A stretch of 64,000 bases of DNA from Tsukamurella sp. 1534 (GTDB taxonomy: Bacteria; Actinomycetota; Actinomycetes; Mycobacteriales; Mycobacteriaceae): NCBI RefSeq assembly GCF_000312385.1, contig NZ_HE997628.1:357744-421743 (forward strand), in the 5' to 3' direction. Positions 15,970-62,932 of the stretch are shown here, one piece after another. The translations under genes were made by a program, and so were the position numbers. The notes below the pieces were generated by a model. That model saw nothing but the letters and a program-made list of their open reading frames with translations, was not told the origin of the DNA and ran no database searches. Every line of letters begins with the position of its first letter. Within the stretch, counting starts at the first letter, position 1.

Positions 15970-16626
15970 ATGACGGTCGTAGGGACACCCGAGGTCAAGC
16001 CGCGGCTACGCGGAGTGATCCACCAATTCGGAGCCATCGGCGCCGTGGTGGCGGGCGTGCCACTGGTCGCCGCGGGGTTCGCCCACTCGATCCCCGCCGG
16101 CGTGGCGCTGCTGATCTACGCCGTCACCGTGCTCGGCGTGTTCGGCGTCAGCGCGGCGTATCACCGCGGCCGCTGGACCGAGGCGCAGCGGATCTGGATG
16201 AAGCGCGCCGATCACTGCATGATCTTCGTGTTCATCGCCGGCAGCTACACGCCGATCGCCGTGCTCGCGCTGCCGCCGTCCGTCGCTCGCTGGGTGCTCG
16301 CCGTCGTGTGGGGAGGGGCGCTCGCGGGCGTCGCGCTCAAACTGCTGTGGCCGCACGCACCGCGCTGGGTCGGCGTGCCGCTGTACATCGCCCTGGGCTG
16401 GGTGGTCGTCGCCGTCGCCGGGGACCTCGTGCAGGGCGCCGGCTGGCCGGCCGCGATCCTGCTCGCCGTCGGCGGCGTGCTCTACAGCGGCGGCGCCGTC
16501 CTGTACGCCACCCGCTGGCCCGATCCCTGGCCGGGCGTGTTCGGGCACCACGAGTTCTTCCACGCCGCCACCGTGATCGCCGCGGCCTGCCACTACGCCG
16601 CCATGTGGATCACCCTGCTCCGCTGA
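15970..16626 (+). CDS. Hemolysin III family membrane protein (TrhA/YqfA-like)
   Basis: This 218-residue protein has seven hydrophobic segments, as in the PAQR/hemolysin III family. Conserved polar residues of the family are visible: SAAYHRGRW, RADHCMIFVFIAGSYTPIAV and the C-terminal HEFFHAATVIAAACHYAAM, whose His residues with the earlier His/Asp form the predicted zinc site. Bacterial members affect membrane energetics and lipid homeostasis; haemolytic activity is not implied. The start is set by the -10 TATCGT six bases upstream. It converges with the synthase gene, with seven bases between the stops. Confidence 0.9.
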   Translation: MTVVGTPEVKPRLRGVIHQFGAIGAVVAGVPLVAAGFAHSIPAGVALLIYAVTVLGVFGVSAAYHRGRWTEAQRIWMKRADHCMIFVFIAGSYTPIAVLALPPSVARWVLAVVWGGALAGVALKLLWPHAPRWVGVPLYIALGWVVVAVAGDLVQGAGWPAAILLAVGGVLYSGGAVLYATRWPDPWPGVFGHHEFFHAATVIAAACHYAAMWITLLR

Positions 16627-16633
16627 GTCGCCC

Positions 16634-19600
16634 TCAGGAGCGGCAGAGGTGATCGACCAGGCGGGTCCGTGTGGGATGCGCGAACACGTCGGTCGCGGTC
16701 AGCTCGTCCAGGTCGAACGTCGACCGGATCGTCTCCACGAGCTCCACGACCTGGATGGATGTTCCGCCGGCCTCGAAGAACGACTCGTCCGATCCGATGC
16801 GCGTTCCCAACGCCTCCGCCCAGAACTCGTCGACCGCCCGGGCGATCGACGGCCGGTCGGGCACGGCCGCATACGACGCGCCGTCGTCCTCGGCGCGCCG
16901 GGCGAGCAGGTTCCGGTCCGCCTTTCCGCTCGGTCCGGTGGGGATCGCGTCGATCGCGAGCACTCGAGCCGGGCGCAGGTGCGCGGGAAGCCGGGAGTGC
17001 AGCCGGCCGGCGATCGCGTCGACGTCGTGCGTGCCGTCCGTGAGGACGACGAAGGCGACGAGCCGCCGGTCGAGGTCCTCGCCGACCGCGACGACCGCGA
17101 CCTCCGCGACCCGCGTGTCCGCGGCGAGCGCGGCTTCGACCTCTCCGGGCTCCACGCGATGGCCCCGCACCTGGACCTGGTCGTCCCCGCGGCCGACGTA
17201 CACGAGGTCGCCGTCCGGCCTCCGGTACACCAGGTCGCCCGTGCGATACCCGGCGTAGGTCCGCCCGTTCCGGGTGATCGGCGCGAACGCCGCACGGTCG
17301 GCGGCGGCGTGCCCGAGGTATCCGGAAGTCACGTGCGGCCCGTACACCAGCAGCTCGCCCGTGACGCCCGGTGGCACCGTGCGCCCGGCGGAGTCGACGA
17401 CCGCGGCGCCGGTGTGCGGCAGCGGGATACCGATCACGGCCTCCGGATCCGATTCGGCGGTCGCGAGGTCGATCTCCGCCATCGTGGTGAGGATCGCCGC
17501 CTCGGTCGGGCCGTACAGGTTGAACACCCGGGTCCGGGGCGAGGCCGACAGGATCCGGCGCACCGTGGCGGGGCGCAGTCGCTCCCCGCCCAGGAACACC
17601 ACCCGCGGGGACACCGACGACCAGTCGTCGTCCGTCGCCGCCGCGTTCAGCATCCCGAGTGCGCTCGGGGTCAGGCACACGACGTCGGCCCGCTCCGCGC
17701 GCAGCCACGCGAGGTACCCCGCCGGATCGCGACGCAATCGGTGCGGCGGAATCAGGACGGTACCACCGTCCAGGAGTGCCCCGAATACCTCCCACACGCT
17801 GAAATCGAAAGCGGGGGAGTGGAAGAGCGGCCAACGGCCGCCCGGAACGCGGGCGGTGCGGGTCGCGTCGAACAGAGCGGTGATCGATCCGTGCGTGATC
17901 GGTACCGCCTTCGGCCGGCCGGTGGAACCGGAGGTGAAGATGACGTACGCCGTGTCGCCCGGCGCCGGAGCCGACGGCGCGGTGCCCTCGCCGGTCAGCT
18001 CCTCGATCGGATGATGGTGCAGCCCGGGCGAATCGGGCCAGGGTGCGGCGCCGGCGGTGATGACGTCCATCCCGCCCACGTCCGCGACCATCGAGAGCAC
18101 CCGGTCCCGCGGGGTCTCCACGTCGATCGGGACGTAGGTCCGCGACGCGTACAGCACGGCGACCATCGCGACCACGAGCTCCGCCGACGGCGGGATCGCG
18201 ACCCCGACGAACGGCCCGTCGATCCGTGCGGCGATTCCGTTCGCGACCGTGCGCGCCCGGCGGTCCAGCTCCGCGTAATCCAGCGTGGCGTTCGGCGTCG
18301 CCACGGCGACGGCGCGCGGTGAGCCGCGCACGACGGCGCGGAACAGGTCGACGAGGGTGGTCGCGGCCGCGGCGCGGGCGGGAGGGCGGTCCGCCGCCGG
18401 CGGGCCGGGGACCGCGGGGTGCGACCACCCGATGGAGGCGAGCGCCGCGCCCGGGGCGTCCGCCGCCGACCGCAGCACCGACGCGTAGACGGCGCCCACG
18501 TCCGTACCGCGCAGCGCGTCGCACTGCTCGACCCGCACGGCCAGCTCGGTGCCCGAGCACTCGACCACCACGGACAGCGGGAACTGGACGTGCCGGCGGC
18601 GCAGGACGTGCGTGACCGCGGTGACGCCGCCGATCGACGGGGCGAGCGGACGCGGATACACGGTGAACGAGCTGGGCGCGCCGGCGGCCGCGGCCGCCCC
18701 CGGTATCCGGTCGGCGTAGCGCAACAGGTCGAACGATTCGAACCCGATCAGGGCAGCGACCTGTCCGTCGACGTCGCGCGCCAGATCGGCGAACGTACGG
18801 CCAGGCGCGGACAGATCAACGCTCACGGGAAGCGAATTCACCAACACGCCGCGGTGATTCGCGGCATCGGCGGTGGACCGGCGATTCGACAGCGGTACCG
18901 ACACCACGACGATCGGTCCGGCGCCGAGGAGCCCGGTGGTGACGGCGTGCGCCGCGAGGAGGAACGAGAAGGTGCGCACGCCGAGCTCGCGGCTCGCGGC
19001 GACGACGCGCGCACCGTCGACGGTGGCCGACGACGCCGAGCCGGCCAGCGGCGCGTTGCCGGCGCGCCGCGCCCACGACGGTGCGTCGGGCGTGGTCGGG
19101 AGGGTCGCCCGGAAGTGCGCCACAGCCTCCTCGGCGTTCACCCCGCCCGTTGCGAGCGCGTGCGGCGCGACGTCCGGCGGCGGCTCCCACGCCTCTCCGT
19201 CCCGATAGGCGCCCGCGATGTCGAGCACCATGAGATACCACCCGAAGACGTCGGTGACCAGGTGGGAGGTGACGAGAACGGCGAACGTGCGCGGGCCGCA
19301 CACCGCGACCTCGAGATGGAACTGGGGCCACACGTGCGGCGGGAACACCGCGTCGTACACGGCCTCCGCCGCCGCCAGCACGGCGTCCAGGTCCGCGTAC
19401 GGCACGACGGGGACCCCGGGCCGCGCGCCCGGGTGCGGTACCCGCACGAGCTCGCCCGCCGCCCGGGACACGGTGTCGTTGACCGCACCGGTCGCCGTCG
19501 CGACGGCCTCGATCGCCGCCGCCAGGCGCCGCGGATCGAGCCCGGTGAACTCCATCACGGCGCCGATGTTCGCACCCGGGTCCGAGGGGCGCGCGAACTG

Positions 19601-22267
19601 TGCGGCGGCGATCCGCGCCTGCGCGGGCGAGGGTGGACGGACCGCATCGGGGCGGTCGTCGGGCAGCGCCGCGCGCCACCGCCGGAGCAACGCCGCGCGG
19701 TGCTCGTCGTCCGCGAGGATCGAGTAGTGGTCGCCGGGGACGTCCACGACCGCGACGGGGCCGGCCGTGTGCGGCGTCCAGTCGTGCGCGGGCCGCACTC
19801 CCAGTGCCGCGAACACGCCCGACGGATCGTGCTCGGTCGCGCGGAAAACCGTGACCGGTGCGGTGATCCGTCCCACCGGTCGGTGCTCCATCAGTGCGCG
19901 GTGGTGCCGGCTCCAACGTTCGGCGAACTCGGGTGCGCGCCCGTCGGGTACGTCGGCGAACCGTCGCAGGACGCGGTCGGCGGCCGCACGATAGGCGGCG
20001 CTCCCGAGCGGCTGCGCGGGGACCGGGTACGAGGCCGGGGACAGCGCGTCCACGAGAGCGACGTGCGCCACCGGGCGCCCGGCGTCCTCCGCCAGCAGCG
20101 CCATCGCCATCGCGACGTTGCCGCCGAAGGAGTAGCCGCCGAGCCACAGCGGGCCGCGGACGTCCGCCGGGATCGCGGCGAGGGCGTCCGCCGCGATCTG
20201 GGGAATGGTCCGCTCGCCGGCCGGCGCGGTGAACACGCCGATCGGGGCGTCGCCGAGGTCGTGGGCGAGTCGCCGGTAGACGAGGGTCGTGCCGCCCGCG
20301 GGAGGATGCAGCAGCCACCGCGGCCCCGGCCGGCTCCAGTCCCCGTACCGCACGAGGGTCACCCGCTCGGGGGATGCGGCACCGTCGATCTGCGCGGCGA
20401 GCACGTCGACCATCTCGCCGACGGTCGCCACCGCGTCGAGCGCGTCGAAGTCGATCCGGCACCCGTATCCGGCCTCGAGTTCGGCGACCAGTTCCACGAG
20501 CATCACCGATTCGCCGCCCGCGTCCATGAAATCGGACGCGAGCAGGTCCGCCCCGACCTCCGCGCCGAGCGCGGACGCGAAGGCGGCCCGCACCGTGTCG
20601 TGGACCGATTCCGGGGAGGAGGACGAGGACGGAGCAGGGACGGCGTCCGGGGCCGGTGGCGTCTCGACGATCGGAGGCAGGTCGACCCACGTCTCGTCGA
20701 AGGGCGCCGGTGGCAGCAGTACGAACCGGCCCGCGTCGCCGGAGCGGGGGCCGGCGGGCCCCGACGGGGCCTCACCCGGCGCTTCGAGCGCGCGAACGAG
20801 GCCCGGGATCGTCGCCGCGTGCAGTGCGACGGTGCGATCGCCGGATTCGGCGCGCTGTCGCAGACTCCGGGCGACGTCGGCGACGCTGATGTCGGTGCGC
20901 CCGCGCACCGCCTCGGCCAGACGCGAACGGTACGCGCGGAGCGCCGCATCCGAGGACGCGCGGACCTCGACCGTTCCGCCGTGCGTGGTGGGCGCGGCGG
21001 GCCGCGGCGGCGCGGGCACCAGGACCGCGGACACGTTGCCGCCTCCCATGCCGAAGGAACTGACGGCGACCGCCGCACCGTCGGGCAGTGTCGATGCCGC
21101 GTCCGCGACCCGGAACCTGGTGCGGTGCAGCCCGAGTTCCGGGTGGGCATCGCCGAAATCGGGCTGGGCGGGCACGATCCCGTGGCGCAGCACCATGGCG
21201 GCCTTGAGGAGCCCCGTCACGCCCGCCGCCGCGTCCAGGTGGCCGAAGTTCGCTTTCACGGCGCCCAGCAGGCACTCCGGTCCGGCTCCGTGGGCGAGGT
21301 GCAGGCCGCGGACCTCGATCGGGTCGCCCAGAGCCGTGCCGGTGCCGTGCGTCTCCACGTACCGGATCCGGCCCGGATCGACACCGGAGCGCGCCATCGC
21401 CGCGACCTGGACCGACGCCTGGCCGTCGGGGTGGGGGTGGGTGAACGAGCCGGCCGCGGCACCGTCGTTGTTGGCGGCGGTACCCGCGATCACGGCCAGG
21501 ACGTCCGAACCGTGCTCCGCCGCACGGGAGAGGCGAGTCAGCACCACCGCGGCTCCACCCTGCCCCGGAACCACGCCGTCGGCGCGGGCGTCGAACGGCC
21601 GGCACCGCCCCGACGGCGAGAGCACATCACCCGCGGACGCGATGTACCCGGAGGCGCCCGGGACCGCGAGCGAGGCGGCGACGACGATCGCGGCATCGAT
21701 ATCGCCCTGCGCGAGAGCGGAGGCCGCCTGGTGGACGGCCATCAGCGATGAGGAGCACGCGCTCTGGACCGCGAGGGCCGGACCCGTGAGACCGAGCTTC
21801 CGCGCCACCCGGGCCGCGGCGAACGCCGGATCGCTGCCCAACAACGCGGGGTAGGGGATGGCGGCGCCGGAGTCCCGGAGCCGAGGGGCCACGCGCCGCA
21901 GGAGGTAGGTCGGCGCCGACACCGAGCCGAACGTGCCGACCACGGCCTCCGCGGGGTCCAACCCCGAACTCTGCAGGGCCTCGGCGGCGAGCTTGAGGAT
22001 CAAGCGGTGCTGCGGGTCGATCAGTTCCGCCTCGCCGCGGGTCAGCCGGAACCTGTCCAGGTCGATCGCGCCGGCATCGCCGATCCGGGTGCCGACGGGG
22101 ACGTAGCGGGGATCCGCGACATCGGCGGCGGAGGCACCGTCGGCGAGGGCCTCCCGGTCCGGGATCGTCTCGGTCCCGACCCGGCCCGCGCACAGCGAAT
22201 CCCAGAAGTCGCCGAGGGTGTTGCAACCCGAAAGTCGTACTGCCGCACCGATGATCGCGAGGGCCAC
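16634..22267 (-). CDS. Hybrid polyketide/nonribosomal peptide synthase, KS-CP-TE-C-A-CP
   Basis: One 1877-residue megasynthase. Domains in order: ketosynthase 1-425 with C171 (QSACSSSL), H307 (VETHGTGTALGDP) and H343 (KANFGHLDAAAG), so the catalytic triad is intact; linker 430-540; carrier protein 553-628 with S587 (DAGGESVM); thioesterase 645-870 with S713 (GYSFGG), a candidate D740 and H847 (PGDHYS); condensation-like domain 880-1285, where the active motif reads SHLVTDV instead of HHxxxDG, keeping the second His (1002) and Asp (1006), with a late C motif VLVNSLPV; adenylation 1305-1790 with FTSGSTGRPK, FDFSVWE, NLYGPTEA, YRTGDL and K1782 (PSGKAD); carrier 1805-1877 with S1837. No acyltransferase, reductase or terminal thioesterase is present. 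My hand reading of the adenylation code is D-F-W-C-F-G-L-I-L-K, which I cannot assign to a substrate. It lies 39 bases after asnB and has its own -10. The product is unknown. Confidence 0.93.
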   Translation of the reverse strand: MALAIIGAAVRLSGCNTLGDFWDSLCAGRVGTETIPDREALADGASAADVADPRYVPVGTRIGDAGAIDLDRFRLTRGEAELIDPQHRLILKLAAEALQSSGLDPAEAVVGTFGSVSAPTYLLRRVAPRLRDSGAAIPYPALLGSDPAFAAARVARKLGLTGPALAVQSACSSSLMAVHQAASALAQGDIDAAIVVAASLAVPGASGYIASAGDVLSPSGRCRPFDARADGVVPGQGGAAVVLTRLSRAAEHGSDVLAVIAGTAANNDGAAAGSFTHPHPDGQASVQVAAMARSGVDPGRIRYVETHGTGTALGDPIEVRGLHLAHGAGPECLLGAVKANFGHLDAAAGVTGLLKAAMVLRHGIVPAQPDFGDAHPELGLHRTRFRVADAASTLPDGAAVAVSSFGMGGGNVSAVLVPAPPRPAAPTTHGGTVEVRASSDAALRAYRSRLAEAVRGRTDISVADVARSLRQRAESGDRTVALHAATIPGLVRALEAPGEAPSGPAGPRSGDAGRFVLLPPAPFDETWVDLPPIVETPPAPDAVPAPSSSSSPESVHDTVRAAFASALGAEVGADLLASDFMDAGGESVMLVELVAELEAGYGCRIDFDALDAVATVGEMVDVLAAQIDGAASPERVTLVRYGDWSRPGPRWLLHPPAGGTTLVYRRLAHDLGDAPIGVFTAPAGERTIPQIAADALAAIPADVRGPLWLGGYSFGGNVAMAMALLAEDAGRPVAHVALVDALSPASYPVPAQPLGSAAYRAAADRVLRRFADVPDGRAPEFAERWSRHHRALMEHRPVGRITAPVTVFRATEHDPSGVFAALGVRPAHDWTPHTAGPVAVVDVPGDHYSILADDEHRAALLRRWRAALPDDRPDAVRPPSPAQARIAAAQFARPSDPGANIGAVMEFTGLDPRRLAAAIEAVATATGAVNDTVSRAAGELVRVPHPGARPGVPVVPYADLDAVLAAAEAVYDAVFPPHVWPQFHLEVAVCGPRTFAVLVTSHLVTDVFGWYLMVLDIAGAYRDGEAWEPPPDVAPHALATGGVNAEEAVAHFRATLPTTPDAPSWARRAGNAPLAGSASSATVDGARVVAASRELGVRTFSFLLAAHAVTTGLLGAGPIVVVSVPLSNRRSTADAANHRGVLVNSLPVSVDLSAPGRTFADLARDVDGQVAALIGFESFDLLRYADRIPGAAAAAGAPSSFTVYPRPLAPSIGGVTAVTHVLRRRHVQFPLSVVVECSGTELAVRVEQCDALRGTDVGAVYASVLRSAADAPGAALASIGWSHPAVPGPPAADRPPARAAAATTLVDLFRAVVRGSPRAVAVATPNATLDYAELDRRARTVANGIAARIDGPFVGVAIPPSAELVVAMVAVLYASRTYVPIDVETPRDRVLSMVADVGGMDVITAGAAPWPDSPGLHHHPIEELTGEGTAPSAPAPGDTAYVIFTSGSTGRPKAVPITHGSITALFDATRTARVPGGRWPLFHSPAFDFSVWEVFGALLDGGTVLIPPHRLRRDPAGYLAWLRAERADVVCLTPSALGMLNAAATDDDWSSVSPRVVFLGGERLRPATVRRILSASPRTRVFNLYGPTEAAILTTMAEIDLATAESDPEAVIGIPLPHTGAAVVDSAGRTVPPGVTGELLVYGPHVTSGYLGHAAADRAAFAPITRNGRTYAGYRTGDLVYRRPDGDLVYVGRGDDQVQVRGHRVEPGEVEAALAADTRVAEVAVVAVGEDLDRRLVAFVVLTDGTHDVDAIAGRLHSRLPAHLRPARVLAIDAIPTGPSGKADRNLLARRAEDDGASYAAVPDRPSIARAVDEFWAEALGTRIGSDESFFEAGGTSIQVVELVETIRSTFDLDELTATDVFAHPTRTRLVDHLCRS

Positions 22268-22274
22268 TACGGGG

Positions 22275-22280
22275 ACCCTA
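22275..22280 (-). promoter_or_regulatory. -10 hexamer TAGGGT upstream of the synthase gene
   Basis: On the minus strand TAGGGT ends seven bases before the GTG at 22267, inside the 39-base gap after asnB. It suggests an independent leaderless transcript for the synthase. No convincing ribosome binding site is present, which fits. Confidence 0.4.
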
Positions 22281-22306
22281 CCGATGCGGCGGCCTTCCGG
22301 CGGCGA

Positions 22307-24271
22307 CTACAGCCGGACCGGGTACACCGGCTCCTCGATCTGCGGGTGGATGCGGTCCTCGACGAAGATGCCGTGCCACACCATGAACACGAGAACGGTC
22401 CAGATGCGGCGCGAGTGATCCGTGCCGCCCGGCCAGCCCTCGGAGGCCTTCGCCTTGTGCTCGTCGAGCATGGCCAGCACCGCGCGACGGTCGATGAACT
22501 CGTCGGTCTGCGAGTCCTCGATCGTCTGGCGCGCCCAGTCGTACAGCTCCGGGCCGGCCAGCCAGTGCCGCAGCGGTACGGGGAAGCCCAGCTTCTTCCG
22601 GTGCAGCACGTGCGGCGGGATGATCTCCTCCAGCGCGCGACGCAGCGCGTACTTCGACGTGCCGCCGGCCAGCTTGAGGTCCGCGGGCAGGGTCTCCGCG
22701 ACGCGGAAGACCTCCTTGTCCAGGAACGGCACGCGCAGCTCGAGCGAGTTGGCCATCGTCATCTTGTCGGCCTTGACCAGGATGTCGCCGCGGAGCCAGG
22801 TGAACTGGTCCAGGTGCTGCATCCGCTCCACGGGGCCCCAGCCGCGGGTCTTCGCGTAGATCGGGGCGGTGACGTCCGTGTGGGTCCACTCCGGCCGGAA
22901 GTCGCGGAGCACGGCCTGCAGCTGCGCGTCGTTGAACGAGCGCGCGTTGCCGTAGTACCGCTCCTCCAGCGGGATCGACCCGCGCTGCAGCAGCGACTTG
23001 CCGCGCTGCCCCTCCGGCATCCGGTCGCCGATCCGGCCGGCCGTCCGCCGCGCCCACGCGGGCAGCCTGTCGAAGGGCGCGAGCGACAGCGGCTCCTTGT
23101 AGATGGTGTAGCCGCCGAACAACTCGTCGGCGCCCTCGCCCGAGAGCACCACCTTGACGTGCTTACGGGCCTCCTTGGCCAGGTAGTAGAGGGGCACGAG
23201 GGAAGGATCGGCGACGGGGTCGTCGAGGTACCAGACGATGGCGGGGATCGCGTCCCGGAACTCCTCGGGCGAGACGGTCTTGATCACGTGCCGCGCGCCG
23301 ATCGCCTCGGCCGACTCGGCGGCCACGTCGACCTCGCTGTAGCCCTCGCGCTGGAAACCGGTGGTGATGGTGATGAGGTCCGGGTTGTGCTGGATCGCCA
23401 GCGCGGCGACGGCCGTGGAGTCGATGCCGCCCGAGAGGAAGGACCCGACGGTCACGTCGGCGCGCATGTGCATCTTCACCGAGTCGCGCAGCGCATCGGC
23501 GATGTCGCGGTACACGGCCTTCGCCTCGGCGGACTCCAGGCCACCGGTCACGGGCTTCACGGGGAAGCGGGGCTCGAAGTAGCGCCTGCCCTCGACCGTG
23601 CCGCCCGGCGCGACGGTCGCGTAGCAACCCGACTCGAGCCGGCGGATCCCTCGATGCAGGGACTCGGGCTCGGGCACGTACTGCAGCACCGTGTAGTGCT
23701 GCACGGCCCGGGCGTCGACGCCGGGCTCGAGGCCGGCCTCGTCGGCGAGCGCGAGCACCGACTTCTTCTCCGACGAGAAGACGGTGCCCTTCGTCCCGGT
23801 GGCGACGTACAGCGGCTTGATGCCGAACGGATCGCGCGCCAGCGTCAGCTCGCGGCGCTCGGTGTCCCAGATCGCGAAGGCGAACATACCGCGCAGGCGG
23901 GGGAGGACCCCGTCGATGCCCCAGTGGTGGAAGCCGGCGACGATCGGCTCCCCGTCGCCCTCGGTGCGGAACTCGGCGCCGAACTCCTCGGCGAGCTGCG
24001 CCCGGAGCTCCAGGTAGTTGTAGACCTCACCGTTGAAGGTGAGGGCGTACCGCTCGGGGTTCTCCGGCGGGCCCCAGCGCAGCGGCTGGTGCGCGTGCTC
24101 GATATCGATGAACGAGAGCCGGTTGAACGTCATAGCCAGGTCGGCGTCGTGCCACGACCGGCCGAACTCGTCCGGACCCCGGTGCCGCATGCACCGGCCG
24201 GCCGCGGTCACCGCGTCGACGACGTCGCCCGCGCGTTGGTCGGCGGACAGGAATCCCAGGAGGCCACACAC
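22307..24271 (-). CDS. asnB: Asparagine synthase (glutamine-hydrolysing)
   Basis: This 654-residue enzyme makes asparagine (or amidates another carboxylate) from glutamine and ATP. The start is fixed biochemically: GTG at 24271 is followed directly by TGT, giving the N-terminal Cys nucleophile in CGLLGFLS after Met removal. The glutaminase domain (about 1-220) includes RHRGPDEFG and FNGEVYNYLEL. The synthetase domain shows the PP-loop SFLSGGIDSTAVAAL and GEGADELFGGY. Length equals mycobacterial AsnB (Rv2201, about 650). A chain-modifying amidotransferase role for the neighbouring synthase is conceivable, but synteny argues for the ordinary housekeeping enzyme. It diverges from ctaC; the 197 bases between them hold no promoter I can call with confidence. 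Confidence 0.95.
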   Translation of the reverse strand: MCGLLGFLSADQRAGDVVDAVTAAGRCMRHRGPDEFGRSWHDADLAMTFNRLSFIDIEHAHQPLRWGPPENPERYALTFNGEVYNYLELRAQLAEEFGAEFRTEGDGEPIVAGFHHWGIDGVLPRLRGMFAFAIWDTERRELTLARDPFGIKPLYVATGTKGTVFSSEKKSVLALADEAGLEPGVDARAVQHYTVLQYVPEPESLHRGIRRLESGCYATVAPGGTVEGRRYFEPRFPVKPVTGGLESAEAKAVYRDIADALRDSVKMHMRADVTVGSFLSGGIDSTAVAALAIQHNPDLITITTGFQREGYSEVDVAAESAEAIGARHVIKTVSPEEFRDAIPAIVWYLDDPVADPSLVPLYYLAKEARKHVKVVLSGEGADELFGGYTIYKEPLSLAPFDRLPAWARRTAGRIGDRMPEGQRGKSLLQRGSIPLEERYYGNARSFNDAQLQAVLRDFRPEWTHTDVTAPIYAKTRGWGPVERMQHLDQFTWLRGDILVKADKMTMANSLELRVPFLDKEVFRVAETLPADLKLAGGTSKYALRRALEEIIPPHVLHRKKLGFPVPLRHWLAGPELYDWARQTIEDSQTDEFIDRRAVLAMLDEHKAKASEGWPGGTDHSRRIWTVLVFMVWHGIFVEDRIHPQIEEPVYPVRL

Positions 24272-59147: not shown

Positions 59148-59951
59148 TCAGCGCCGGTCGAGGCCCGCGTACACGGCCACGGGCATGCCCTCGACGGTGT
59201 GCACGGCGACGGTGGTCTCGAAGACACGGGTGAGCAGCTCGGAGGTCATGATCTCGGCGGGGGAGCCCGACGCCGCGATCGTTCCCTCCTTGAGCGCGAC
59301 GATCCGATCCGAGTACGCGGCGGCGAAATTCAGGTCGTGCACCACCAGGATGATGGTCTTGCCCAGCTCGTCGGCGGCGCGGCGCAGCTGGGCCATCATG
59401 CCCACCTGGTGCCGCATGTCGAGGTTGTTGAGCGGCTCGTCCAGCAGGATCACCTCGGTGTCCTGGGCCAGCGTCATCGCGACGTACGCGCGCTGGCGCT
59501 GCCCGCCGGAGAGCTCGTCGAGGAAGCGGTCCGCCAGGTCGGTGAGGCCGAGGAAGCCGAGCGCGTCGTCGATGTACCGCACGTCATCGGCGGTGAGCCG
59601 GCCCCGGCTGTGCGGGAACCGGCCGAACGCCACCAGATCCCGAACCGTGAGCCGGGCGTTGACGCCGTTCTCCTGCCGCAGGATCGCGAGCCTGCGCGCC
59701 ACCTCGGTGGGCTTCATCTTCCGCACGTCCCGCCCGTCGAGGAGCGCCGTACCGGATTCCGGCTCCAGCAGCCGCCCCAGGATGGTGAGCAGGGTGGACT
59801 TGCCCGCGCCGTTCGGGCCCACCAGGGCCGTCACGCCGCCGCGGTGGAACTCGCCGGACACCGGCCCCAGCACCACGGTCTCGGCGTACGACTTGGTGAG
59901 GTCCGTGAAGGCGATCGCGGGCCCTGCGGTGGTGGTGGCGGATTCGGTCAC
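59148..59951 (-). CDS. Iron-siderophore ABC transporter ATP-binding protein
   Basis: This 267-residue ATPase belongs to the FepC/FecE class. Walker A GPNGAGKSTLL near residue 45, Q-loop LAILRQENGVNARLTV, signature LDELSGGQRQRAYV, Walker B VILLDEPLNNLD and the switch His in VVHDLNFA are all intact. GTG 59951 overlaps the stop of the second permease (GTGA). It is the last gene of a four-gene import operon (binding protein, two permeases, ATPase) read leftward from the iron box at 63.0 kb. Confidence 0.93.
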   Translation of the reverse strand: MTESATTTAGPAIAFTDLTKSYAETVVLGPVSGEFHRGGVTALVGPNGAGKSTLLTILGRLLEPESGTALLDGRDVRKMKPTEVARRLAILRQENGVNARLTVRDLVAFGRFPHSRGRLTADDVRYIDDALGFLGLTDLADRFLDELSGGQRQRAYVAMTLAQDTEVILLDEPLNNLDMRHQVGMMAQLRRAADELGKTIILVVHDLNFAAAYSDRIVALKEGTIAASGSPAEIMTSELLTRVFETTVAVHTVEGMPVAVYAGLDRR

Positions 59952-60985
59952 ATCGTCCCCCTTCGGCGGAACAGGATGGCGAGGAACAGGATCCCGCCGC
60001 AGAACTCGATGATCACCGTGAGCATGCCCGCGGCGTAGAACACGTTGTGCAGGACGAACTGCCCGACGGTCAGCATGATCACGCCGAGCAGGACGGCCAT
60101 CGGGAGAGTGGCCCGGTGCCGCCAGTCGCCCGCGAGCTCGTAGGCGAGGGTGGCGATGATGAAGCCGAAGAACACCATCGGGCCCACCAGCGCGGTGCTG
60201 ATCGAGATGAGCAGGGCGATGATCATGAGCGCGCGGGTCAGTTCGCGCCGGTGATCGACGCCGAGGCCGATCGACGGTTCGCGGCCCAGCAACAGCACGT
60301 CGTACACGTTCCGGTTGCGCCACACCAGGATCGCGACCAGCACGCAGGCCGCGATGCAGTACGGCAGCAGTTCCTCGTTGACGGCGCTCACCCGGCCGTA
60401 CAGCTTGATCATCAGCGCGTCGAACTCCGTGGGGGAGAGCAGCCGCTGCAGGAACTCCGCGACCGCCCGGAACGCGAGGCCCAGGACGACACCCACCAGC
60501 AGCAGGAGGAACAGGCTCGCGAAACGCCCGGAGAACAACCAGCGGTACAGGATCGAGGCGAACAGCACCATGGCCGTGGTCTGGGCGAGGAACTGCGGCA
60601 CGCTGTCCGAGTTCGACACGAAGCTGCCGCCCACCAGCACCACGCCCACCGTCTGGATGAGCACGTACAGGTAGTCGAGCCCGATGATCGACGGGGTGAG
60701 GATGCGGTTGTGGGTGACCGTGTGGAACAGGACCGTCGCGATGCCCTGGCAGAACGCGGCGATCACGATCGCGGTCAGCGTGCGCAGCCGGCGCTCGAAC
60801 GAGAGACCGAAGGTGAAGTCCCACTTGAGCACGTCGTCCGCGCCGGTGCGCAGCACCAGGAACAGGACGGCGACGAGCACGGCCGCCGCGGCGGCGACGC
60901 CCAGCCGCGCCCGCCAGCCGACGCGCGACGTGGTGGCGTCGGTCGCGAGCGCGGGGGCGGCGGTGGCGGCATCAGAGGGCGACAC
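59948..60985 (-). CDS. FecCD-family siderophore permease (second subunit)
   Basis: This 345-residue permease has about nine hydrophobic segments. Family marks include the segment HNRILTPSIIGLDYLYVLIQ near residue 95 and VFFGFIIATLAYELAGDWRH in the C-terminal half, where FecCD proteins contact the ATPase. A 40-residue Ala-rich cytoplasmic N-terminus is unusual in length. GTG 60985 overlaps the end of the first permease by 14 bases. Together the two permeases form a heterodimeric channel. Confidence 0.92.
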   Translation of the reverse strand: MSPSDAATAAPALATDATTSRVGWRARLGVAAAAAVLVAVLFLVLRTGADDVLKWDFTFGLSFERRLRTLTAIVIAAFCQGIATVLFHTVTHNRILTPSIIGLDYLYVLIQTVGVVLVGGSFVSNSDSVPQFLAQTTAMVLFASILYRWLFSGRFASLFLLLLVGVVLGLAFRAVAEFLQRLLSPTEFDALMIKLYGRVSAVNEELLPYCIAACVLVAILVWRNRNVYDVLLLGREPSIGLGVDHRRELTRALMIIALLISISTALVGPMVFFGFIIATLAYELAGDWRHRATLPMAVLLGVIMLTVGQFVLHNVFYAAGMLTVIIEFCGGILFLAILFRRRGTM

Positions 60986-61943
60986 GGTTGCTCCTGGTGA
61001 GGATGATCGCGAGGAAGGTCGCCGCACCCACCACGCCCATGATCACGGACACGGGGATCTCCATGGGCCGCACCAGCACCCGGCCCAGGAGGTCGCAGCC
61101 CACGATGAGCACGGTCGACAGCGCCGCCACCCAGGGCAGGCCCGAGCGCACGTCGTCGCCGCGGAGCGCGCTGATGATATTGGGCACCACCAACCCCAGG
61201 AACGGGATGAAGCCGACCACCACGCTGGTGACGCCGGAGGCCAGCGCCACCATCGTGACGCCGAGCCCCATGGTCAGCCCGTAGCGCAGCCCGAGGGACG
61301 TCGCCACGTCGCGGCCGAGGCCGGCGATGGTGAAGTAGTTCGCCAGCAGGTACGTGGCGACGGCGATGGCGGCCACGGCCCACAGCGGCTCGTAGAAGCC
61401 GCGCACGACGTGCGCGAAACCGCCTGAGCGCCAGGACACCACGGACTGCAGCAGGTTCGTCTCCACCGCGAGGTAGGTCGAGACGGCGCTCACCACGGCG
61501 CCCATCATGAGGCCGACCAGCGGGACGATCGCGGACCGTCGGGCGCGGATCCGGGACAGGAAGCCCAGGAAGAGCATCGTGCCGAGGAACGCGGTCGCCG
61601 TGGCGTAGAGCATCTTCACCAGCGGGGGAGCGCCCGGAGTGAGGATCAGGCAGAGCAGCACGCCCAGGCCGGCCCATTCGGCGGTGCCGGCGGTGGTCGG
61701 TTCGACGAACCGGTTCTGCGTGAGTCGCTGCATGATCACTCCGGAGAAGCTCATGGCGAGACCGGCGAATATCAGTGCGAGAGTGCGGGGTACCCGCGAG
61801 ACGAAGAACATGCGCCACATCTCGTCGTCGCCGGCCAGCAGTCCGGCGGCGGTGATGTGGTACTCGCCCGTCATCAGCGACAGGGCCACCAGCACCGCGC
61901 ACGCCACCGCGATGAGCGGCAGCGCGACGCGGCGGCGGGTCAC
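60972..61943 (-). CDS. FecCD-family siderophore permease (first subunit)
   Basis: This 323-residue membrane permease has about nine hydrophobic segments, RVPRTLALIFAGLAMSFSGV at the start (the FecCD RxPR motif) and the ATPase-contact loop GFIPFLGLVVPNIISALRGDD near residue 230. GTG 61943 overlaps the binding-protein stop (GTGA), so the transporter is translated as a coupled unit. The sequence places it with iron-siderophore rather than vitamin B12 importers because of the operon's iron box, an inference from regulation. Confidence 0.92.
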   Translation of the reverse strand: MTRRRVALPLIAVACAVLVALSLMTGEYHITAAGLLAGDDEMWRMFFVSRVPRTLALIFAGLAMSFSGVIMQRLTQNRFVEPTTAGTAEWAGLGVLLCLILTPGAPPLVKMLYATATAFLGTMLFLGFLSRIRARRSAIVPLVGLMMGAVVSAVSTYLAVETNLLQSVVSWRSGGFAHVVRGFYEPLWAVAAIAVATYLLANYFTIAGLGRDVATSLGLRYGLTMGLGVTMVALASGVTSVVVGFIPFLGLVVPNIISALRGDDVRSGLPWVAALSTVLIVGCDLLGRVLVRPMEIPVSVIMGVVGAATFLAIILTRSNRVAL

Positions 61944-62932
61944 TTCTTGGCGGCGAGCGCCTCGGCGAGGCGCTGGTAGTTCTCGCCGTAGTCCTGGATG
62001 CCCTCGCGGATGTAGAAGAAGTCGTCCAGGTAGTAGATGCGGTCCTGCTCGAAGAACGCCTTGCCCTTGAAGGCCTCCTGGGACTTGAAGACGGCGGCGG
62101 CGGGCTGCGGGGTTGTACCGGGCTCGGGCTCGACGGACGCGTCGCGGTCCATCACGATGACCCACTGCGGGTCGGCCTGGGCGATCGCCTCCGGCGTGAG
62201 CCCCGAGTTCTGGTGGTGGTCACCGGCGTTGCCCGCGAAGACGTCCTTGAGGTTCAGCGGCTCGACGAACGGTTGCATGCGCTTGGCGCCGTTGTCGATC
62301 TTGCCGCCGTTGACGATCGAGAGGAACACCGTCTGGCCGGTGGCCTGCGCCTTGGCCGCGTTCAGCTTGGTGTCGAAGTCCGCCACGATCTGCTTGGCCT
62401 GCTCCTGCTTGCCGAAGATCTCGCCCAGGGTGGCGGTCTGGTCGCGCATCGTGTCCACGCGGTTCTTCGGCGCGCCGTCCTCGGCCGCGATGTCGATGAA
62501 CGCGGCGCCGGTCTTCTCGGCGATCTTCGTGAGGTCGCCCTCCTGCTTGGCGAACCGGTAACCGCCGATGATGAGGTCGGGCTTCACGTCCTCGATCACG
62601 TCGAGCTTCGGCTCCGCGTGCGTGCCCACGTCCTTGATGTCCGCGTCGTCGATCCACTCGCCCAGCACGTTCTTCGCGTACAGCTTCTTCGGGATCGCGA
62701 CCGGGGTCACCCCGAACGCCTTGAGGGTCTCGGCGCTGGTGTTGTCCAGGGCCACGACGCGCTTCGGGTTCTTCGGAACCTCCACCTGCCCCTTGTTGGT
62801 GGTGACGGTGATCTTCTCGCCGGCGGCGGGCTTCTCCTCGTCGGCGCTTGTGGTCGAGCAACCGGTGAACACCAGGCTCGCTGCCACCAGCGCGGCGGCC
62901 ACGGGGGTCGCGGTACGGAAGCGGTTCAACAT
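61940..62932 (-). CDS. Iron-siderophore ABC transporter substrate-binding lipoprotein
   Basis: This 330-residue FecB/FhuD-type binding protein is exported. The signal peptide ends in lipobox VFTGC (C25), giving a membrane-anchored lipoprotein. The two lobes are seen as PKRVVALDNTSAETLKAFG and DVIEDVKPDLIIGG, joined by a long helix, then QADPQWVIVMDRD in the second lobe. ATG 62932 has TAAGGAGT eight bases upstream. It is the first gene of the import operon; an IdeR/DtxR-like box lies about 90 bases upstream. The imported siderophore is unknown. Confidence 0.92.
   Translation of the reverse strand: MLNRFRTATPVAAALVAASLVFTGCSTTSADEEKPAAGEKITVTTNKGQVEVPKNPKRVVALDNTSAETLKAFGVTPVAIPKKLYAKNVLGEWIDDADIKDVGTHAEPKLDVIEDVKPDLIIGGYRFAKQEGDLTKIAEKTGAAFIDIAAEDGAPKNRVDTMRDQTATLGEIFGKQEQAKQIVADFDTKLNAAKAQATGQTVFLSIVNGGKIDNGAKRMQPFVEPLNLKDVFAGNAGDHHQNSGLTPEAIAQADPQWVIVMDRDASVEPEPGTTPQPAAAVFKSQEAFKGKAFFEQDRIYYLDDFFYIREGIQDYGENYQRLAEALAAKK

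Follow-up and report, generated by a model that had tools for sequence, protein, structure and literature searches.

What might a single protein that joins a ketosynthase (KS), a carrier (CP) and a thioesterase (TE) to a condensation-adenylation-carrier (C-A-CP) module be making, when its gene stands alone among housekeeping genes? The question is raised by a locus in Tsukamurella sp. 1534, within the 64,000-nucleotide stretch of contig NZ_HE997628.1 analysed here as a whole (the window), where the original prediction had described a six-domain orphan synthase, KS-CP-TE-C-A-CP, in one frame and had likened its architecture to no known assembly line. The six domains are confirmed by Pfam, homology and active residues, but the architecture is less foreign than was thought: its halves match MucE (KS-ACP-TE) and MucD (C-A-PCP), and homologues encoded by two genes occur in other actinobacteria. 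With slightly more confidence than doubt, we predict a one-protein PKS-NRPS of the MucE/MucD kind without its own acyltransferase (AT), and our best reading is that one chain serves as an N-acyl-tetramate synthase, or as a near relation of one that closes its ring differently.

The gene occupies positions 16634..22267 of the minus strand as a single intact open frame of 1877 amino acids, starting with GTG and ending with TGA. Pfam matches, with E values from 1.3e-66 to 5e-10, cover the ketoacyl synthase (residues 4-249, with its C-terminal part at 257-369), the thioesterase (654-865), two PP-binding stretches (the best at 557-622) and the AMP-binding enzyme (1309-1651, with its C-terminal part at 1709-1782); catalytic residues were located by their known motifs. 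From Pfam and motifs, the KS spans residues 3-420 (21008..22261, minus strand like all that follow), with a Cys-His-His triad formed by C171/H307/H343, and carrier 1 spans residues 557-622 (20402..20599; S587). Alignment additionally places the thioesterase at residues 654-865 (19673..20308; S713/D740/H847) and carrier 2, the second PP-binding stretch, at residues ~1800-1870 (16658..16870; S1837). The adenylation domain, found by Pfam, covers residues 1309-1782 (16922..18343), with K1782 and, through alignment, the code DFWCFGLILK. The condensation domain at residues ~881-1290 (18398..19627; motif SHLVTDV, H1002/D1006) rests on homology to the C domains of loci L009, L026 and L155: no Pfam Condensation call was obtained in the synthase at E <= 1e-3, while the region aligns full length with six homologues, the one from L009 being itself a Pfam Condensation match at 4.8e-29. 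Its sequence has diverged too far for Pfam to report it here. The active residues of all six domains are present.

An AT had been said to be missing from the synthase, and Pfam indeed shows none; the AT motif G[HQ]SxG is likewise absent from 10 of 10 KS-CP-TE proteins (the synthase part and nine relatives). The check for an AT elsewhere in the genome, proposed together with that claim, yielded a FabD-like frame of 321 amino acids about 48.5 kb outside the window (G000:C3:308396-309226), a candidate for an AT acting in trans, and two further AT matches lie in frames of 1729 and 3105 amino acids. The additional claim that neither a phosphopantetheinyl transferase (PPTase) nor an exporter lies nearby holds for the PPTase among 20 of the 55 other called genes of the window, the 20 to which Pfam was applied; on the side of transport, an ABC ATPase and a periplasmic binding protein are found at 59148-62932, 37 kb from the synthase, and look like an importer. 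A PPTase is assumed to be present in the cell, as is general in mycolic-acid bacteria. No mucABC-like genes adjoin the synthase, its neighbours being asnB and an HlyIII-family gene.

These two neighbours, identified by Pfam and synteny, form the edges of an insertion. The stop of asnB (22307..24271, minus strand) lies 39 bases before the synthase start, and the HlyIII-family gene (15970..16626, plus strand) is convergent and ends 7 bases from the synthase stop; beyond asnB, Pfam identifies COX2 (ctaC) and cytochrome b genes and, beyond HlyIII, PfkB kinase (adoK), Fe-S, CobU/CobT and CobS genes. While asnB is found in all 16 same-genus genomes, 14 of them lack a synthase match (E <= 1e-8) within the 8.1-8.4 kb that follow it, and 13 have no match anywhere at E <= 1e-20 to synthase residues 420-1300. 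A clean empty site, with the asnB and HlyIII frames ending 1-4 bases apart, is seen in five of the 14 (L148, L150, L151, L153 and L154), and the other nine have small variable genes at the site or, in L147 and L149, no HlyIII match in the stretch examined. One genome (G009) has a synthase copy at the same site, followed by a MerR gene, and another (G011) has a more distant copy in two frames on a separate 11-kb contig, with a GC content of 0.643 against 0.699 at its asnB locus. With 14 of 16 genomes lacking a copy there and G009 carrying one at the same site, the proposed lineage-specific insertion between conserved genes is supported. A tree built from three flanking genes does not make the window genome and G009 sisters, and the distribution therefore implies several losses or transfer within the genus. 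Recent arrival of foreign DNA was rejected on composition, the GC content of the synthase gene being 0.744 against a mean of 0.715 (SD 0.030) for 49 other called genes of more than 400 bases.

The gap between asnB and HlyIII (16627-22306 in the window; L141-L154 elsewhere) is a variable spot in its own right. Of 14 genomes, 5 have it empty and 3 have a MerR gene in it, and most of the remaining gaps hold other small genes, the one that was checked being an MPAB/Lcp-type oxygenase; the asnB-side stretches of G001 and G011 contain no HlyIII match.

Across the family, 7 of 301 genomes match synthase residues 420-1300 at E <= 1e-20: the window genome, G009, G011, G022, G090, G178 and G283. The last five each encode KS-CP-TE and C-A-CP in two neighbouring genes, KS-CP-TE upstream. 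A scan of genome contigs (at least 592 confirmed stretches, 80 kept) adds, among the matches listed, Streptomyces roseolilacinus (L009) and an uncultured Isoptericola (L026), both with a two-gene pair in which C-A-CP comes first. In overlapping samples of the order and the class, one of 249 and one of 246 genomes match, in both cases the window genome itself; the family, order and class searches scored three candidates per genome, with misses possible. A plasmid-borne form of the same architecture was rejected, as 0 of 2819 matching plasmid records cover at least 80% of the whole query (for 17 records, among the pieces listed). The two-gene actinobacterial pairs (G011, G022, G090, G178, G283, S. 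roseolilacinus and Isoptericola) are the closest relatives among the matches listed; they have the same domain content and intact motifs and differ from the window synthase in being two genes. The possibility, raised at the outset, that this is a well-described family thus applies to the two halves, which are of a known kind, and not to the single-chain, PKS-first fusion, which among the relatives listed is confined to the window genome and G009. Likewise, the search for the same six-domain order elsewhere succeeded at the same locus of G009, in broken frames, the other relatives among the matches listed being two-gene.

The adenylation codes, read from the alignment, vary among these proteins. 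That of the window synthase matches none known to us, and G009 has DFWCFGLVLK, differing only by I to V. G011 has DFWNIGMVHK and S. roseolilacinus and Isoptericola have DFWNVGMVHK, a pattern (DFWN[IV]GMVHK) that we take to be of the threonine type; G022 has DIWGVCLIHK, G090 DIVSVCCMYK, and G178 and G283 DIVSLCCMYK. Since the homologues differ both in this code and in their neighbouring genes, the products of the family are probably diverse. Beside the pairs of G022, G090, G178 and G283 lies a membrane protein that has no Pfam hit and that we call UbiA-like from its DDxxD-type motif; it scores high in exactly these 4 of 301 genomes and has no match in G009 or G011 at E <= 1e-10. A UbiA-like partner gene in the window genome was rejected, the best match there being weak (29%, E 7e-11).

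The pairs of these four genomes (L116, L117, L118 and L119) lie within larger clusters that variously include HMG-CoA-reductase-like, metallo-beta-lactamase-fold, AMP-ligase, free ACP and reductase genes; the cluster of G178 also has a PanD-like decarboxylase and that of G022 a PPDK-like protein ending in a carrier domain. The locus of G011 (L101:6245-10998) has MMPL transporter, nitronate-monooxygenase-like and KAS-III-like genes, and an HXXEE-family protein is found near the synthase genes both there and in the distant cluster of Priestia (L159:1358-1846). In S. roseolilacinus (L009:5961-19903), the flanks hold aminotransferase, SDR, aldehyde dehydrogenase and acyl-CoA-dehydrogenase-like genes, together with class III aminotransferase and LPG-synthase-like genes. 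Another, distinct group of KS domains, with 41-42% identity to that of the window synthase, occurs at L091-L095 (G001, G002, G007, G010 and G014), close to further PKS frames on the same contigs.

Kinship with MucE/MucD and RtcK/RtcN was read via homologues from L. plantarum and Priestia, not from the S. mutans and L. reuteri proteins. When the KS-CP-TE protein of G178 (L118) was compared with plasmids, 2 of 1072 matching records reached at least 80% cover, L. plantarum pLQ801 (L155) and Priestia megaterium (L159), and both pairs sit in muc/rtc-like sets with HMGS/KASIII-like, thiolase, zinc ribbon, NRPS and PKS genes; the rtc-like set of pLQ801 comprises HMGS/KASIII-like, thiolase, zinc ribbon, C-A-CP, KS-CP-TE and PPTase genes. 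The cited passages do not report that L. plantarum pLQ801 makes reutericyclin. The KS-CP-TE part of the window protein aligns end to end with that of pLQ801 at 28% over 928 (E 4e-131) and the C-A-CP part at 25% over 1045 (E 3e-102), the E values coming from a comparison with four sequences only; at this identity of 25-28%, the L. plantarum pair has a different A code, DYFTLGLVVK. In a domain scan from which 17 repeats had been dropped beforehand, the family C model, applied to 335 C domains, ranked eight family rows first, followed by L026 (181 bits) and L155 (164) and then a drop to 119; the family TE model, applied to 41 TE domains, ranked eight family rows, L026 (182), L155 (157) and Priestia (128.5), the next score being 88. 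At E <= 1e-10, the family C model does not recover the C domain of Priestia, which is split.

Trees were built after dropping repeats and short hits and allowing at most two domains per non-family locus. In that of the best 60 of the 335 C domains, seven family rows form a clade with L026 and L155, the only rtc-like row, at SH-aLRT 100, and the value is 99 and 100 when either long row is left out. In the TE tree of 19 rows, the clade with L026, L155 and Priestia has 94, where the tool's star is at 95, and comes with long-branch warnings. The KS clade has 97 in 25 rows by a quick method and 82/68 in 33 rows, including 8 further KS controls, by a careful one, the latter with repeats and short hits dropped only. 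Taken as comparisons of sequences, these results argue strongly for common ancestry of the C domain with its MucD homologues, fairly for that of the TE with its MucE homologues and weakly for that of the KS, which alone would be no proof; the L. plantarum pair thus appears related in C, TE and weakly KS, and Priestia in TE and weakly KS. All 10 KS-CP-TE proteins examined have the same TE motif, GYSFGG. For the C domain, the motif is SHLVTDV in both fused copies, SHEICDV in L. plantarum and HHIIFDV in Priestia, with D-V common to all; the absence of the glycine is thus no sign of decay on its own. The H-x3-D spacing is that of H135/D139 of MucD, as given in the part of PMC10161427 used here.

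How does the synthase compare with described systems? Its KS resembles that of Pks13 from mycolic-acid bacteria, scoring 307 bits in NCBIfam against a cut-off of 2100. Pks13 has its own AT and a domain order unlike that of the window synthase, and we take the separate KS-AT frame of 1729 amino acids (G000:C1:1062439-1065042) to be Pks13. Other NCBIfam systems were rejected, as no equivalog cut-off was reached among the 25 of 117 families listed; the A-domain subfamily model TIGR01733 scored above its cut-off. In the sections of PMC10161427 drawn on here, MucE and MucD have published roles in the mutanocyclin/reutericyclin pathway, where these tri-domain proteins form the tetramic acid ring, the C domain of MucD is reported to be a starter C domain, and mucA-E clusters are mapped in 63 strains, 60 of Firmicutes and 3 of Bifidobacteriaceae. 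MucE is a trans-AT PKS without its own AT according to an excerpt of PMC6694145; the pathway is also treated in parts of that paper, PMC5116633 and PMC8210680, a review that assigns the TE to RtcN instead. MucE with MucD (Streptococcus mutans, muc) and RtcK with RtcN (L. reuteri) have the same six domains and no AT; the window synthase differs from these two-protein systems in its one chain of 1877 amino acids, with the PKS half first and no adjoining mucABC acetylation genes. The nearest single-protein precedent in the passages seen is the fungal TAS1 (tenuazonic acid synthetase 1), also a tetramate synthase composed of an NRPS module and a KS: it is described there as C-A-PCP-KS, with a Cys-His-Asn KS cyclase and nothing after the KS (PMC4640141), whereas the window KS is Cys-His-His and is followed by a carrier and a TE. 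The chalkophomycin NRPS-PKS is different, having an AT and no TE in the portion of PMC11085572 consulted. Titles and abstract openings of the tetramic acid and muc/rtc literature, largely non-subscription, contained no report of a fused KS-CP-TE-C-A-CP protein. The feature that stays unusual is that both halves share a single chain and that the PKS half leads.

The reaction order, substrate, ring closure and product of the synthase are what we infer from these comparisons. The A domain would load an amino acid onto the C-terminal carrier, and a starter-type C domain would N-acylate it, drawing the fatty acyl group from the pool of the cell. From there the chain would return to the N-terminal KS, which would add one malonyl unit from carrier 1, itself loaded by an AT acting in trans, for which the cell's FabD-like enzyme is the candidate. 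The most likely order would be C-A-CP2, KS-CP1 and TE, against the direction of the chain, with AT and PPTase borrowed from the cell. The full proposal, a single-polypeptide tetramate synthase formed by reverse fusion of muc-type proteins, its chain moving backwards or across a dimer, and standing as an orphan beside asnB with a need only for the cell's AT, PPTase and acyl pool, is one that we put forward tentatively and with somewhat more doubt than conviction. Against the best reading stand the low identity to rtc-like proteins, the differing A code, the absence of adjoining mucABC-like genes, the lack of a Priestia match to the family C model and a domain order that runs opposite to the proposed reactions. 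On this last point, the order of the two genes varies among the relatives, with KS-CP-TE first in the five family genomes and C-A-CP first in Streptomyces, Isoptericola and L. plantarum; since either order occurs, transfer between the two proteins seems not to require collinearity, which makes a fusion in reverse plausible.

The same variation bears on a collinear alternative, in which a beta-keto acyl chain would be built by KS-CP1 and coupled by C to an amino acid on CP2; release by the internal TE, or by a spontaneous Dieckmann reaction, would then yield either an N-(3-oxoacyl) amino acid or a 3-acyl tetramate. It has the merit of reading the domains as they are written, and the two-gene relatives in the family all share its order; yet Streptomyces, Isoptericola and L. 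plantarum have proteins of the same kinds in the opposite order, and the order of the genes is thus no guide to that of the reactions. The TE also stands directly after CP1, as in MucE, and the C domain groups with the MucD-like one of L. plantarum, MucD-C being a starter C domain in the part of PMC10161427 used; we consider the collinear route unlikely. Another possibility keeps the order of the best reading and has the TE hydrolyse the beta-keto thioester, or cyclise it through the hydroxyl of a side chain, so that the product would be an amino ketone or a lactone. The differences among the homologues in A code (three of them Thr-like) and in neighbouring genes would agree with such an outcome, but the TE groups with muc-like TEs (94) and its GYSFGG motif does not vary in the 10 proteins examined, and we regard this ending as rather improbable, if worth keeping in view. 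We know of no residue that would tell lactamisation from hydrolysis.

Could the gene be a relic, or silent, and make nothing today? Several frame breaks interrupt the G009 copy, the distribution in the genus is patchy and no partner genes adjoin, all of which would fit. The window frame, on the other hand, is intact with every active residue in place, and in G009 the assembly is 83% complete and asnB is broken too, so sequencing error is likely behind the frame breaks. Comparison of the two copies gives dN 0.22 and dS 0.75 (dN/dS ~0.3), with mismatches of 386/321/806 by codon position, and the synthase is thus kept by purifying selection, its divergence being somewhat higher than that of the flanking asnB (dN 0.05, dS 0.38) and adoK (dN 0.08, dS 0.60). 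We hold a relic to be very improbable. The G009 copy also bears on the fear that the frame is an assembly fusion of two genes: the stretch matching residues 418-943, across the TE-C junction, is one uninterrupted, stop-free frame there, and such a fusion is therefore unlikely and was rejected.

Overall, if the best reading is true, the ring-closing route, which the sections of PMC10161427 cited here place in mucA-E clusters only, would reach other actinobacteria with two core proteins and, at this locus, would do so without adjoining acetylation genes. The synthase would then provide a compact, single-protein model for chain transfer against domain order, and those of its two-gene relatives that sit in larger clusters offer starting points in the search for new compounds.
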